From a virus: 32,303 nt of DNA. Positions 24,132 through 30,843 of this stretch are shown here, piece by piece. Under the pieces are notes generated by a model, which was not told where the DNA came from, did no database searches, and saw nothing but the letters and a program-made list of their open reading frames with translations. Position numbers and translations under genes: made by a program. Numbering within the stretch: position 1 is the stretch's first letter; every line of letters begins with the position of its first letter. The stretch covers positions 1 to 32,303 of IMG/VR virus record IMGVR_UViG_3300042294_001077; one strand, written 5' to 3'.

Positions 24132-24283
24132 AGGACGAGGCAAAACCCCGCAAGAAAAAAGTCTACCGCAAGCCCGAAGTAAAATCTTGCTACTATTGCG
24201 GATCAAATAATATTGAACAAATCCACGTTGCCCATGTCGGAATAATCAAGACATGCCGCAACTGCAAAGAACAAATCGATTAA
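24128..24283 (+). CDS. Small zinc-ribbon protein
   Basis: The product is 51 residues, sharing ATGA with the endolysin stop. A basic N-terminus (KPRKKKVYRKPEVK) leads to CYYCGSNN, then CRNCKEQ near the end, so four cysteines in two CxxC pairs can bind one zinc. It is probably a nucleic-acid-binding ribbon, perhaps a small regulator. The next gene begins 4 bases later. Confidence 0.6.
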   Translation: MKDEAKPRKKKVYRKPEVKSCYYCGSNNIEQIHVAHVGIIKTCRNCKEQID

Positions 24284-24552: not shown

Positions 24553-24774
24553 ATGGCCAATGGATTACTATCCTTCAGCTTGCCCGAAGAACAGGTTGAG
24601 TTTGAGCAAGCAGTTAAGGCGGGTGATATGTATTGCGTTCTTAATGACCTTGATAACGAGCTACGCAATCATCTCAAGCACAATGCTTATCCTCATTGGA
24701 ATAACGCTACTGTTGAAGAGATTCGCCAAATTTTGAACGATTTGATGGATAGTAGGTCTATCCATTTTAACTAA
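24553..24774 (+). CDS. Conserved small phage protein
   Basis: The product is 73 residues. FSLPEEQVEFEQAVKAGDMY followed by DLDNELRNHLKHN and a final EEIRQILNDLMDSR is a pattern I recognise from small conserved proteins of many unrelated phages, whose function is unknown. It is all-helical. The gene starts two bases after the previous stop and no Shine-Dalgarno is seen. Confidence 0.6.
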   Translation: MANGLLSFSLPEEQVEFEQAVKAGDMYCVLNDLDNELRNHLKHNAYPHWNNATVEEIRQILNDLMDSRSIHFN

Positions 24775-24784
24775 ACCACAATAC

Positions 24785-25387
24785 ATGACTACATTCTATA
24801 TCTGTGGCCCCATGAGGGGCTATCCAAAACTCAACCATCCTGCATTTTTTGAAGCCGAAGAAACATTGCTTAAAGCTGGACATCAAACCATCAATCCAGC
24901 AAGGATGGATCAGCAGCTAGGGCTAGATCCCCACAACTCCCAAATGGACAGCAAGTTCATTGAGGACTGTGCCCGAAGGGACATTGATGCGGTCTTTGAA
25001 TGCGACGAGCTTGTATTGCTTCCCAAGTGGGAGAAGTCCAAAGGAGCCAGAGCGGAGGTCGCCGTAGCCCAATGGCTAGAAAAACCCTTGCGTCTCTACC
25101 CATCTATGGTTAGATTGGACAAAGAAGATGTGTGCGACATTGCCAAGCGCCTTACTTCCTATGATCGCCAAACCGACTACGGAAGTCCGATTGAAGACTT
25201 TACCAAACAAGCTAAAATGTGGGGAGCTATCCTTGGAACCAATGTGACCCCGCAACAAATCGCCATGTGCATGATTGCGGTAAAACTTTCCAGACTTACC
25301 AACTCACCCCGTCATAGGGATAGCGTGGCTGATATCTGCGGATATGCGCGGTGTTTAGATCTCTGCAACCAAGCAACCTCTCTATGA
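24785..25387 (+). CDS. DUF4406 (deoxyribosyltransferase-like) fused to a DUF6378-type domain
   Basis: The product is 200 residues. The N-terminal part (1-107) has YICGPMRG at 5-12, NHPAFFEAE, INPAR at 36-40 and KSKGARAEVAVA near 84-95, matching DUF4406, a Rossmann-like relative of nucleoside 2-deoxyribosyltransferases. The C-terminal part (about 120-195) has DYGSPIEDF, KMWGAILG, IAMCMIAVKLSR and DSVADICGYARC, matching the small helical DUF6378 family found in phages. It probably binds or processes a nucleotide or nucleoside; no activity can be assigned. ATGA overlap couples it to the metallophosphoesterase. Confidence 0.75.
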   Translation: MTTFYICGPMRGYPKLNHPAFFEAEETLLKAGHQTINPARMDQQLGLDPHNSQMDSKFIEDCARRDIDAVFECDELVLLPKWEKSKGARAEVAVAQWLEKPLRLYPSMVRLDKEDVCDIAKRLTSYDRQTDYGSPIEDFTKQAKMWGAILGTNVTPQQIAMCMIAVKLSRLTNSPRHRDSVADICGYARCLDLCNQATSL

Positions 25388-26172
25388 GCAAAAACATCGC
25401 AATCCTTTCGGATTTTCATTGCGGCCACAAGGCTGGACTGACCCCGAAAGGCTACCTTCCAGAAGAGCCTGCTGAAGAACGTGCTCGCTGGATCAACGCA
25501 AACAAAGCCTACTACAACTGGTATAACCATCATATCAGGAAGCATGGCCCATACGACATTATCTTCCTCAATGGAGATCTGTTGGACGGGACTGGTAAGA
25601 AGTCTGGCGGAACGGAACAAATCACTACCGACATGGAAGAGCAGTGCGACATGGCGGTTAAGATCATTCGTGAAATCCCGAAGACTAAGAAGTGCGAAAT
25701 AGTTATCACTAGGGGAACGCCCTACCATACTGGTGATGCCGAAGACTGGGAAGACATTGTGGCAGATCGCGTAAGCGCGGCTATTGGAGAACATGAATGG
25801 GTGGAAGTAGAGGGGGTCGTATTTGACCTTAAACACCACCCAGCAGGCTCTAGCGGCCTTCCCCATGGTCGGCATACTGGCGTGGCCAGAGACCGCCTCT
25901 GGAACATCATGTGGGCCGAAAGAGAGTTACAGCCGAAGGCCGACATCTTCATCCGATCCCACGTTCACTACCACAACTTTGCTGGAGGCCCAGAATGGTT
26001 GGGTATGACTACTCCAGCCCTACAGGGGTTTGGTAGCCGCTACGGGGCCAGACGCTGTACTGGTCTGGTGGACTTCGGATTCGTCACATTTCAAGTAAAC
26101 AAAGGAACATACACATGGCAACCCATCATAGCAAAACTAGAAGAGCAAAAAGCTCCAATGATAAAATTGTAG
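25384..26172 (+). CDS. Calcineurin-like metallophosphoesterase
   Basis: The product is 262 residues from ATG 25384, which overlaps the previous stop; an upstream GTG at 25351 has no support. Metal-binding motifs: SDFHCGH (Asp10, His12), LNGDLLDG (Asp65), a variant of the GNH motif at RGTPYHTG (His115), His151/His152, and SHVHYH (His193, His195). These enzymes hydrolyse phosphomono- or diesters with two metal ions; the substrate here is unknown, and nuclease, nucleotidase or signalling-nucleotide phosphodiesterase are all possible. Its pairing with the DUF4406 fusion suggests nucleotide metabolism or anti-defence. The last 58 bases overlap the next gene. Confidence 0.85.
   Translation: MSKNIAILSDFHCGHKAGLTPKGYLPEEPAEERARWINANKAYYNWYNHHIRKHGPYDIIFLNGDLLDGTGKKSGGTEQITTDMEEQCDMAVKIIREIPKTKKCEIVITRGTPYHTGDAEDWEDIVADRVSAAIGEHEWVEVEGVVFDLKHHPAGSSGLPHGRHTGVARDRLWNIMWAERELQPKADIFIRSHVHYHNFAGGPEWLGMTTPALQGFGSRYGARRCTGLVDFGFVTFQVNKGTYTWQPIIAKLEEQKAPMIKL
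26101..26106 (+). promoter_or_regulatory. Shine-Dalgarno inside the metallophosphoesterase gene
   Basis: AAAGGA lies eight bases before the ATG at 26115 and decides that start, although it makes the gene overlap its neighbour by 58 bases. Confidence 0.6.
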
Positions 26173-27412: not shown

Positions 27413-29515
27413 TTAAACGTAATCGTTGGTGATATCGACAAGCAGCGCATCGATCCTAACATAGCTGAACCTATAAGGAGATGCGTTGATTCTGTAAACA
27501 AAAAGACCAGTAGGGAATGTTGAGTATTCCGTTGCCGAAAGAGAAGAAGGGGTTATTGAAACGGTTCCAGCTTCGGATGGAAATCCAGTAATATCAATAT
27601 CAAGATCGCCATGAATGGTTGCTGGGACATTGGCTATGTTTGTCGTAACGCTGCCCATTGTTGAGGTTGACGTAGCCGCAGAATCAAACGAAACAGATTC
27701 TGATGTTTCTTCTGATTGGCTTGTTTCAACAATTGCGATTTGATAAGCCCTCGGTCTTACATTCGGCCAAAATTGTATCGATTGATTTTCTTTTTCGTTC
27801 CTGACTTTCTGCAAAACTTGATTTGGCGAAGCTGCCCCTTTAGGCAAAAAGAAGACGGCCCTAATGGTCGGAACAACGCCCCTGAACCCCTCTTCGATAT
27901 CATATCTCAATGTGGCCCCAACGGAGTTTCTTTTCATTTGTGTATAGCTATAGGTGTCTCCGTTTACTGTCGGAGCTTCGCTCTGTGCCTGAACTCCGTT
28001 GGCCGCTGCACTTATCGACATGAGTTTGTCTGGAAGCGCGACCTCAATCATGTCTGGGATTTCCCAGTAATATTCATCAAGGGATTGTTGCGCGTCTTCA
28101 ACATCGTAGCGGATGACCTCGCTATAAACCACATCCCTCGGAGTTACCCTCTTTCTGTTTCCTTCGGTAAACCTTGAAGATGTGGCGCTGGCAAAAACTC
28201 TCTTATACGGGATTACTATATCAAGCTCTTCATCGTAGTCCTGCCCACGAAGGATTGGCATGAGGTTTTCGGACGGGATGTTTCCGTCTTCGTCGGCCTC
28301 TTCTGGGAACTGTTGATTTATTGGTTGAAGTTTGACCTTACGCCTTAATTTGTAGTTTCCCCCAACATTGGTAAGTTCATCGGAAACTGTTCCGTATTCT
28401 GGAATCCCGAAAATATCACTGGACGGAAATTCTTCTGTTACAGTGGCAAGCCCGCCGCCAAGCTCAGATGTATAGACCTTACCCTCAAGTGAAGAATTTG
28501 ATTGAAGACCCCTGTAGGTTTTGCGGATTCTTTTTACAAATTCCGTAACCTGTTGTTCGCTCTTTGACAACTGATATTGTCCATCAACCACATCGAATGT
28601 GATATTGTCGGGAACTATACCAGCTTCTAGGATTTCTTCTGAACGAAGACCAGAAAACACCCTAAACTTTTCGGGGGTAATATCAATTGTTTCAAGAGAC
28701 CTTGTTTTTCCAGCGAAGACGGCGGGAATCTCAACTTTTCTTTCGACCAACGATTCTTTGTCTTCGGCGTTTGCCTCGACAGTAAGAAGCGCGGTTAACT
28801 CTGGGGGAACATATCCATTAGCAGCCTTTCGTTGTGCGGTGATGGTGGCAAGTTGTCCTTCGTTATTGGTAACCTTGCTAACGAGTTGCGGGCCAGCAAC
28901 AGAGTAAGTTTGGACTACCTTATAGGACAAAAATTCATTGTATGGCTCGTAAGAGATTTGGGTAATAACCCCGTTTTCATTTTCAAGACTGGCGGTCTCC
29001 TCTCCAGTCGGGACAATGAGTTGGCGGCGTTCCTTGACTGGCCCACGGGACGGATCATAAAAATCCCGATCCTTGATGGGGAAAAGAGAATTGCCATCTT
29101 CGTCGGTCTTGATTGACCAAGTCTCTTCAATCTCTAGAGAGACAATGGCAGAACCATCGCGTCCTTCGTAAGATATCTTTCTATCGGAAGCCAAGTCGGC
29201 CTGTTGGCCCTCATTCTTGACGGCCCTGCGTCTTCCTTGAATCGGGCCTAGATCATCATCATAGCGGGTAAAAGGAACCCAAGGGGCGGGCAGGATCTCG
29301 TAAACGTGGGTGACAATCTGATCTCCAGAGGCTGGTTGCGCCCCCGTGAACACATGGTTGGGATAGCGTTTACTGTCGGGGTGCGGACTAAGATCCTCTG
29401 GGACTTTGTAGCCAGCGGTTCTTGGATCTCGCTTAATTCCAATTACGGGATAGTCACGATCACTTGCCGCATAGGAAACAACATATGATCTGTCGATAGG
29501 AGGATAATCAGCCAT
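27413..29515 (-). CDS. Large probable structural (tail) protein, first gene of the reverse operon
   Basis: The product is 700 residues with no signal peptide or membrane segment, predicted almost entirely beta with many Glu/Asp/Arg. The N-terminus reads MADYPPIDRSYVVSYAASDR, there is a central charged region (KVKLQPINQQFPEEADEDGN), and the C-terminus is Ser/Thr-rich (SVSFDSAATSTSTMGSVTTN) then YRFSYVRIDALLV. It looks like a tail or baseplate component, perhaps exposed on the virion. No family recognised. Its leftward promoter must lie in the divergent gap; a weak pair TTGCCG/TAGGTT on the reverse strand is a candidate. Confidence 0.6.
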   Translation of the reverse strand: MADYPPIDRSYVVSYAASDRDYPVIGIKRDPRTAGYKVPEDLSPHPDSKRYPNHVFTGAQPASGDQIVTHVYEILPAPWVPFTRYDDDLGPIQGRRRAVKNEGQQADLASDRKISYEGRDGSAIVSLEIEETWSIKTDEDGNSLFPIKDRDFYDPSRGPVKERRQLIVPTGEETASLENENGVITQISYEPYNEFLSYKVVQTYSVAGPQLVSKVTNNEGQLATITAQRKAANGYVPPELTALLTVEANAEDKESLVERKVEIPAVFAGKTRSLETIDITPEKFRVFSGLRSEEILEAGIVPDNITFDVVDGQYQLSKSEQQVTEFVKRIRKTYRGLQSNSSLEGKVYTSELGGGLATVTEEFPSSDIFGIPEYGTVSDELTNVGGNYKLRRKVKLQPINQQFPEEADEDGNIPSENLMPILRGQDYDEELDIVIPYKRVFASATSSRFTEGNRKRVTPRDVVYSEVIRYDVEDAQQSLDEYYWEIPDMIEVALPDKLMSISAAANGVQAQSEAPTVNGDTYSYTQMKRNSVGATLRYDIEEGFRGVVPTIRAVFFLPKGAASPNQVLQKVRNEKENQSIQFWPNVRPRAYQIAIVETSQSEETSESVSFDSAATSTSTMGSVTTNIANVPATIHGDLDIDITGFPSEAGTVSITPSSLSATEYSTFPTGLFVYRINASPYRFSYVRIDALLVDITNDYV

Positions 29516-29570
29516 GGAGAATCCCGAAAACCTACTCTAAAAAGAAGGTGGCGGCAAGATGATTTTCCTC

Positions 29571-29598
29571 TTGCATCATTCCGTATCTTTGCTAAATT
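29571..29598 (+). promoter_or_regulatory. Putative promoter of an intergenic small RNA
   Basis: TTGCAT and TAAATT are separated by 16 bases. A transcript from here would start near 29605 and cross the two hairpins to the terminator at 29641-29676. The -35 has four consensus matches. Confidence 0.35.
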
Positions 29599-29600
29599 TC

Positions 29601-29676
29601 ACAGTGGAAGACATTCGTCTTCCTGTTTTCATGTGTGTGGGCGGGGTCGGGCTAAAAACTCGGCCCCGCTTTTTTT
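29601..29676 (+). ncRNA. Candidate small RNA (two hairpins, about 70 bases)
   Basis: The first stem pairs GGAAGAC with GTCTTCC around an ATTC loop, extended by ACA/TGT with a two-base bulge (29601-29626). A single-stranded TG-repeat linker follows, then the GC-rich terminator stem at 29641-29669 with seven T. No forward gene lies upstream, because the neighbouring gene runs leftward, so the terminator serves no protein-coding forward gene. Size and layout resemble bacterial and phage small RNAs. Confidence 0.5.
29641..29676 (+). terminator. Strong intrinsic terminator, rightward
   Basis: GCGGGG pairs with CCCCGC, continued inward by TCGGG/CTCGG with two wobble pairs, around a CTAAAAA-type loop, followed by seven T (29670-29676). 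The reverse strand has no T-run after the stem, so it works only rightward. It insulates the following promoter at 29683. Confidence 0.85.
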
Positions 29677-29682
29677 GAACAC

Positions 29683-29709
29683 TTGACAAGTTGGGTTGTC
29701 GGATATAAC
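29683..29709 (+). promoter_or_regulatory. Promoter for the rightward DNA-metabolism module
   Basis: A perfect TTGACA and TATAAC are separated by 15 bases. Transcription would start near 29716, only about 8 bases before the ATG at 29724, so the message is nearly leaderless and no Shine-Dalgarno is present. Confidence 0.7.
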
Positions 29710-29723
29710 GAACATCTACCTAT

Positions 29724-30350
29724 ATGGCATATCAATCCAACCAACCCAAAGCACCAGTCCTCTCACATTTCACGCTCGCGAAAAACGGGCCAAAGCTCGT
29801 AGTCATCAAATCAGCCCCCAAGTGGGTGAAGAATAACAGCCTATGCGTTATCGAATTGATCGTTGACGGCGTGGCTCATGTGTATTTTACTGAGAATAAG
29901 GATATTGCGTCGAAGTTTCAGCAATATGTTGGTAAGTCTGTAGTGCTTATTGCCTCTGGCAATTCCAAGCAGAAGACCGATTCCATGGAGATCCAGCCTG
30001 CTGGGGTTCCTGCTTCCAGCCTGCCCGCCGCCCAGAGTGGGCCACAATCGCCCCAGAAGCCCGCAGAAACAGTTATTACGGCCCCACCCCACAAAGACAA
30101 AGAAGCCAAGCAATTCCTCTGTCAGGCGGCAAATCTGATGCGCTTGTGTGTCAAGAAGGCCAATGATATTGCGGTGGAACTAGATTTGCCTAATGAACAC
30201 AGGCAGGGTATTGCCAGCAGCCTCTTTATCAATGCCGACCGCCATGGGTTTGTTTCTTCAATGCCAATCACTCCGTATAAACCAGATCAATATGGCTGGG
30301 GTTCAAGCAAAGAAACATCCCTAAAAGTCCCAATTCCAAATGAAGAATAA
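29724..30350 (+). CDS. OB-fold-like protein, possible single-strand DNA-binding protein
   Basis: The product is 208 residues. Residues about 35-90 look like an OB-type beta barrel (NSLCVIELIVDGVAHVYFTE; YVGKSVVLIASGNSKQKTD). A Pro/Ser/Gln-rich linker spans about 90-128, followed by a helical C-terminal domain (KQFLCQAANLMRLCVKKAND; HRQGIASSLFINADRHGF). A barrel plus disordered linker suits an SSB-like protein, but the usual acidic tip is reduced to a terminal NEE. As the first gene after the main promoter it is likely an early gene for replication or recombination. Overlaps the HNH gene by 11 bases. Confidence 0.5.
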   Translation: MAYQSNQPKAPVLSHFTLAKNGPKLVVIKSAPKWVKNNSLCVIELIVDGVAHVYFTENKDIASKFQQYVGKSVVLIASGNSKQKTDSMEIQPAGVPASSLPAAQSGPQSPQKPAETVITAPPHKDKEAKQFLCQAANLMRLCVKKANDIAVELDLPNEHRQGIASSLFINADRHGFVSSMPITPYKPDQYGWGSSKETSLKVPIPNEE

Positions 30351-30843
30351 AGAATCAATAGATTTTTTAGAAGCATCTAAATGTTTGGAATACTGTCCGA
30401 ACACTGGAGTTTTTCATTGGAAAGTTTATCGCTCGCGTAATGCAAAAGCAGGACAAATTGCTGGAACTGGGCACATTGCTGGCTATACCCAAATAGGATA
30501 TAAACAAAAAATATACTTAGCCCACAGACTGGCGTGGTTTATGTTTTACAAAAAGTGGCCATCAGAACATATAGACCATATCAATGGGAACAGAAAAGAT
30601 AACAGGATTTGCAATCTAAGAGAATGCACTCATTCACAAAATCTTTTAAATAGGACAAAACAAATCAATAACAAAACTGGACACAAAAATATTTTTCTGG
30701 AAGGCCGAAGCAAAAAATACATAGTAAAAATAAATAAGAACAAAAAGGTTCACTATGTTGGTAAATTCTTAAAACTTGAAAACGCAATCAAAGCAAGAGA
30801 CCGCGCCCACAAAAACATCTGTGGCGAGTTCTCTAAAATCTAA
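30340..30843 (+). CDS. HNH homing endonuclease with AP2-like C-terminal domain
   Basis: The product is 167 residues. The HNH core has YLAHRLAWFMFY (His62), EHIDHINGNRKDNR (His77, Asp79, His80, Asn82) and NLRECTHSQNLLNR. The region from about residue 110 (TGHKNIFLEG, KYIVKINKNKKVHYVGKFL) resembles the AP2-type DNA-binding domain common at the C-terminus of these enzymes. The gene is much richer in A+T and Lys codons than its neighbours, a sign of recent arrival as a selfish element. It would cut a homologous intron-less or gene-less site in rival phages. It overlaps both neighbours only slightly. Confidence 0.85.
   Translation: MKNKESIDFLEASKCLEYCPNTGVFHWKVYRSRNAKAGQIAGTGHIAGYTQIGYKQKIYLAHRLAWFMFYKKWPSEHIDHINGNRKDNRICNLRECTHSQNLLNRTKQINNKTGHKNIFLEGRSKKYIVKINKNKKVHYVGKFLKLENAIKARDRAHKNICGEFSKI

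Follow-up and report, generated by a model that had tools for sequence, protein, structure and literature searches.

To our knowledge, few trans-acting small RNAs (sRNAs) encoded by phages are known, and many of these come from lambdoid phages. Hfq-class sRNAs share a general layout of a hairpin, an open pairing stretch, and a U-tailed terminator. The late leader (6S RNA) of phage lambda is terminated before the late operon and follows the cis-leader logic of Q antitermination. Several other phage RNAs act by antisense or trans pairing: sar of P22 and c4 of P1/P7 are antisense RNAs acting on the mRNA of ant (antirepressor), OOP RNA of lambda is antisense in cis to the overlapping cII, and PreS of lambda (target dnaN) and VpdS of VP882 are trans-acting, Hfq-binding RNAs with targets among host RNAs (PMC12197685).

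Here we describe a locus in a metagenomic phage that, judged from sequence comparison, is very probably a dedicated sRNA gene. It lies at positions 29571-29676 of the window, by which we mean the whole 32,303-nt record IMGVR_UViG_3300042294_001077, a 32-kb IMG/VR entry. The flanking genes diverge, with 27413-29515 (-) at the left and 29724-30350 (+) at the right, and the gap between them reads on the + strand as a promoter, a 5' hairpin, an open linker, and a terminator with a run of seven T (Table 1). The original prediction had noted the rightward terminator, the promoter-like pair, and the GGAAGAC/GTCTTCC hairpin in this gap, and all are present where it had placed them. Its statement that the terminator ends no coding transcript is incomplete, having overlooked that gene 29724 begins 48 nt downstream on the same strand, so that the terminator could in principle end a 29724 leader. 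The whole window had no match in Rfam at or above family threshold.

Table 1. Coordinates of the sRNA unit, the divergent promoter, and the predicted target sites in the window.
Feature	Position	Strand	Description
sRNA promoter	29571..29598	+	-35 TTGCAT 29571-29576, 16-nt spacer ending TGC (extended -10), -10 TAAATT 29593-29598
Small RNA, ~68-73 nt	29604..29676	+	Predicted; start 29603-29606 deduced from the -10; end in T run
5' hairpin GGAAGAC-AUUC-GUCUUCC	29606..29623	+	7-bp stem, AUUC loop
Single-stranded linker UGUUUUCAUGUGUGU, 15 nt, presumed pairing seed	29624..29638	+	
Intrinsic terminator	29639..29676	+	13-bp GC-rich stem (29639-29671), 7-nt loop, T7
Divergent promoter of the leftward operon	29529..29557	-	-35 TTGCCG, 17-nt spacer, -10 TAGGTT
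Predicted target site, start region of gene 24785 (CUAAACCACAAUACAUGACUACAU)	24771..24794	+	
Predicted target gene 24785, 200 aa	24785..25387	+	Nucleoside 2'-deoxyribosyltransferase fold (DUF4406), N-terminal, plus DUF6378
Second candidate target site, start of gene 26115 (ACAUACACAUGGCAACC)	26101..26124	+	Complementarity to linker

A search with protein 29724 yielded 66 viral loci with upstream DNA, from which 42 distinct cases were compared. The sRNA unit lies directly upstream of the 29724 homologue in 64 of the 66 loci, and the two loci that seemed to lack it, L061 and L080, have it elsewhere on their contigs, away from the query gene. On the contig of L061 (L017), 29724 is displaced by an endonuclease-VII-like gene that begins 8 nt past the T run, with the unit intact, and on the contig of L080 (G010) a covariance model locates the sRNA at L382:6326-6414. 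The same model finds one strong copy per related genome, with E values from 8e-5 to 3e-23. Similarly, an HNH-like ORF replaces the left flank as far as the -35 box in L050 and L042, where the unit is again intact. Insertions on both flanks therefore bound the functional unit from the -35 box to the T run. The endonuclease VII/HNH-like genes (L017:772-1356 (-) and L050:4130-4858 (+)) mark repeated insertion on either side of the unit, as in a homing hotspot, and an HNH gene is also present in the window, at 30340-30843.

The sRNA family belongs to uncultured phages of ~70 kb that have no cultured relative. Near-identical DNA was not found in cultured phages, tblastn with protein 29724, protein 27413, and the terminase returned no matches, and the 29724 family had no match in the bacterial and archaeal genomes scanned; a helicase search gave just distant matches (<60% identity) from many genera. 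When viral contigs were searched for exact matches to the linker alone, numerous unrelated contigs came up, in many cases antisense to the start of a gene; by itself, the linker is thus not diagnostic. In the related record G001 (IMGVR_UViG_3300032322_001107, 72,849 bases), the homologue of gene 24785 is split over both record ends, with an overlap, which suggests a circular or circularly permuted genome of ~72 kb; if this size applies, the window is likely about half of a genome.

The sRNA promoter matches the consensus at 8 of 12 positions and, being under the cut-off, was not listed by a generic promoter scan of the window; its support is therefore comparative. The family pattern is TTGCA-N17-TARRTT with TG before the -10. 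TTGCA is invariant across the 42 distinct relatives, and its distance to the -10 is fixed in 40 of them. In group A, the relatives that share the hairpin type of the window, the TG is also invariant, and the promoter boxes stay constant while 13 letters of the spacer are just 48% identical. All 16 sites of the strict motif TTGCA-N14-TGN-TARRTT in 20 related records fall at the sRNA element. The divergent leftward promoter keeps its 17-nt spacing in 40/42 distinct relatives, the two exceptions having an endonuclease-like gene inserted there. The two -35 boxes stand back to back and form a conserved inverted block, GCAAG-N11-CTTGC (29554-29574), which may be a regulator site common to both promoters; this arrangement suggests joint control of the sRNA and the leftward operon. 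A conserved ATTTTCC stretch lies within the block, between the boxes.

The RNA of the window folds with -33.8 kcal/mol (z = -4.9; none of 200 shuffles was as good), and z ranges from -4.3 to -6.1 across four family members. The predicted fold gives both hairpins as described and leaves the 15-nt linker unpaired. Between group A (5' stem GGAAG/CUUCC) and group B (GAGGG/CCCUC), both arms of the stem differ, and the pairing is kept. The next pair of this stem is A-U in the window, G-U in most relatives, and G-C in L058, and L055 has an extra C-G pair. The terminator stem also varies in sequence among relatives with its pairing preserved. MAFFT slid the alignment of the two hairpin types by one base, so the between-group count of compensatory pairs depends on the alignment, whereas pairing within groups is kept regardless. 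In the group A comparison, hairpin and linker are ~90% identical, against 48% for the promoter spacer. The linker, UUUUCAUGUGUGUG, recurs in relatives and is conserved in group A and partly beyond. The most distant relatives (L074, L066, and L078) have no 5' hairpin but retain CAU-N0-2-GUGUGUG and the terminator; linker and terminator are thus the conserved core. The U7-U9 tail and a UUUU in the linker are compatible with Hfq binding.

Read as its reverse complement, the linker gives CACACACAUGAAAAC, the context of a start codon. We scored every ATG start by its duplex energy with each genome's own linker, and the start of gene 24785 was the best of 42 in the window (-18.4 kcal/mol). The start of its homologue ranks first in G006 (89 starts), G012 (47), and G009 (87), and between second and sixth in G002, G003, G004, and G007. 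Over 13 records, the 24785 family is first among the 84 gene families found in at least four records. With 160 shuffled linkers in which CAT was held in place, none matched the real score for this family (mean log percentile -3.82, against -1.88 +/- 0.59 for shuffled linkers); when families present in few genomes are included, 7/160 shuffled linkers give some family an equal or better score.

The complementarity is conserved on the target side as well. All 38 distinct 24785 leaders contain CACA or ACAC, at a mutual identity of 48%, and CACAC or ACACA occurs within 15 nt of the AUG in 32 of them, against 7.7 +/- 2.5 in shuffles. Their mean duplex energy is -16.2, compared with -13.1 +/- 0.4 for shuffled leaders (0/200 shuffled sets as good). 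In G009, where the 24785 protein is 45% identical, the pairing spans CACACACAUGAAAA over the start codon with one bulge. CAU-N0-2-GUGUGUG occurs 22 times in 19 records (4.1 expected); 14 occurrences are the sRNA, and six of the other eight fall on the antisense strand precisely at the start of a 24785 homologue. CA-GU pairing forms easily here because the 24785 leader is almost pure A/C and the linker G/U-rich, and when linkers and leaders, both of low complexity, were swapped among nine lineages to test whether the members of each pair are tuned to one another, the permutation fraction was 0.17, which is not significant. Taken together, the comparisons make 24785 a probable target of the linker. 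Its protein matches Pfam DUF4406 and DUF6378 and PHROG 355 (nucleoside 2-deoxyribosyltransferase), and the predicted structure of its N-terminal half (pLDDT 76, moderate) matches nucleoside 2'-deoxyribosyltransferase structures in Foldseek with probability 1.0; it is a probable nucleotide-recycling enzyme.

Gene 26115 lies two genes downstream of 24785 in the same operon, and its family ranks second of the 84, with one of 160 shuffled linkers as good. It encodes a 96-aa product with weak helix-turn-helix matches, below the cut-off. In group B (e.g., L072, L216, L220, L248, and L260-L264), 24785 is cleanly missing between the intact neighbours 24553 and 25351. Group B without 24785 retains the sRNA, and most of its linkers have a shortened GU tract, yet most keep UUUUCAUGUGU or a close form that still matches the 26115 start. 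G010, which combines the group B hairpin type with gene 24785, has kept the GU tract, and G005, in which 24785 is reduced to its DUF6378 half, still has a long one. Because group B keeps the RNA without 24785, and G005 its long GU tract, 24785 cannot be the sole target, and the sRNA probably has more than one. The GU tract may have been lost just once in the evolution of group B.

We propose that a sigma70-like, extended -10 promoter, standing back to back with that of the leftward operon, would drive synthesis of an RNA of ~70 nt that ends at its own intrinsic terminator. The 5' hairpin and the terminator would protect this RNA and hold the linker open for pairing in trans with mRNAs that carry CACAC(N)AUGA at the start codon. 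Its chief partner would be the phage's own 24785 and probably also 26115. Pairing over the AUG would block ribosome binding and repress translation. Most genes of the window have no obvious Shine-Dalgarno sequence, which makes masking of the AUG a plausible block to initiation. Expression of 24785 would fall as the leftward operon turns on, and a chaperone such as Hfq may take part. We put the probability of this whole account, a stand-alone sRNA gene that pairs in trans at the 24785 start and represses it, at roughly 0.6; we infer transcription, pairing in the cell, the repressive sign, and the timing from the comparisons above. More tentatively, the seed could read the CACAC-AUGA start signature of a few of the phage's own genes that have no Shine-Dalgarno sequence, and so form a compact post-transcriptional switch between two operons, kept throughout a widespread family of uncultured phages. 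It is likewise a tentative idea that these would be the operon of the nucleoside-recycling enzyme and the helix-turn-helix-like protein on one side and the operon with the back-to-back promoter on the other.

The original prediction of an RNA of about 70 bases fits the single copy per genome, the variation pattern of promoter and fold, and the survival of the unit when either flank is replaced, and the start that it proposed, near 29605, agrees with the conserved promoter. The covariation among relatives that it called for is seen in the 5' hairpin and the terminator, which keep their pairing through sequence change. It had suggested action on host or phage mRNAs or sequestration of a protein, and target prediction for the TG-rich linker, and had named no target; the top family is now 24785, with a conserved complementarity at the start that exceeds that of shuffles, so that among these functions the evidence favours pairing with a phage mRNA.

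A second promoter-like class, TTGAAC-N15/16-[GT]GTC[TG]G, has a layout resembling ECF sigma promoters and occurs 40 times in 19 related records (2.9 expected). The window has two such sites, 29675-29702 upstream of 29724 and 24213-24240 upstream of the stretch with 24785 and 26115; sites of the latter type lie within a short ORF, where coding constraint may contribute. In group B, the motif also overlaps the sRNA promoter. A search for a phage sigma factor that would serve this class found no Sigma70 r2 or r4 domain above the cut-off, and weak Sigma70 r4 matches were set aside, as they sit in a protein that reads by eye as a small-terminase-type HTH. The product of gene 29724 (208 aa) has no Pfam or PHROG family; its predicted fold is an OB-like barrel with helices, with weak PDB matches that include SSB proteins, and it is possibly a single-strand binding protein.

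The position of the RNA, on the strand of 29724 and in an order kept in nearly all relatives, would also suit an arrangement in which 29724 is served by the promoter at 29571 and the terminator works as an attenuator under control, with a protein or small molecule letting RNA polymerase through. We disfavour this reading as quite unlikely. The linkage is not obligatory, since the endonuclease-like gene in L017 parts the terminator from 29724 and leaves the unit intact, and 29724 has its own conserved promoter-like motif past the terminator (TTGAAC-N15-[GT]TGTC). Moreover, the fold shows no antiterminator pairing with the terminator stem, and an attenuator gives no reason for a linker that matches start codons elsewhere. 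The original prediction had allowed for another alternative, in which the element is a mere terminator that halts antisense (rightward) transcription arriving from the leftward operon. A strong rightward terminator would have such an effect, but the fixed spacing of the conserved promoter, the co-changing arms of the 5' hairpin, and the conserved linker are left unexplained, and we regard this alternative as very improbable.

The start-like context of the linker, the reverse complement of which reads CACACACATGAAAACAGG, could instead belong to a tiny leftward gene on the opposite strand (CACACACATGAAAAC...). This is hardly credible, as the frame is ~18 codons long in the window but 10 in L033 and differs in group B, and the 5' hairpin preserves pairing and not codons. 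It is also unlikely, if less so, that the sRNA acts on host RNAs or binds a protein through its GU-rich linker, with the match to 24785 secondary or accidental. Group B has kept the RNA in genomes that lack 24785, a GU repeat could be a site for protein binding, and host RNAs are the targets of phage sRNAs already described, among them PreS of lambda and VpdS of VP882 (PMC12197685). Against this, the 24785 leader keeps its complementarity despite sequence drift, and the family ranking and the shuffle controls argue that the match is selected.

As a putative trans-acting RNA pairing at the 24785 start, the element resembles described systems in several respects and departs from each. Its own promoter and terminator (by sequence and conservation), its conserved open seed, and a complementarity to a separately encoded mRNA (24785) that is conserved and better than controls are features of phage trans-acting base-pairing sRNAs, and the Hfq-class layout is common to it. 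The family was found by comparison in phages without a cultured relative and comes with a specific, testable target; sRNA genes and their targets can thus be read from metagenomic phages alone, and the case suggests that a phage can turn down its own enzyme by masking a start codon with an sRNA. Like the lambda late leader, it is a short terminated RNA just upstream of a same-strand phage gene; unlike it, the RNA stays the same when the downstream gene, 29724, is displaced, and that gene carries a promoter-like motif of its own. Like OOP, it is short, has a promoter and a terminator to itself, and is predicted to lower expression of a phage gene, but OOP acts in cis, whereas this RNA does not overlap the coding sequence of the gene that it is predicted to target. 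As with sar and c4, a phage RNA would keep a phage mRNA from being translated by acting at or near its initiation site; compared by description, the differences are that the predicted target is 4.8 kb away and is a nucleotide-metabolism-like gene, and that the pairing is partial and in trans. PreS and VpdS are likewise phage-encoded trans-acting sRNAs, with host RNAs as targets, whereas the best-supported target here is a phage gene. On this comparative evidence, the sRNA appears to be a new family within the known phage-encoded base-pairing sRNAs.
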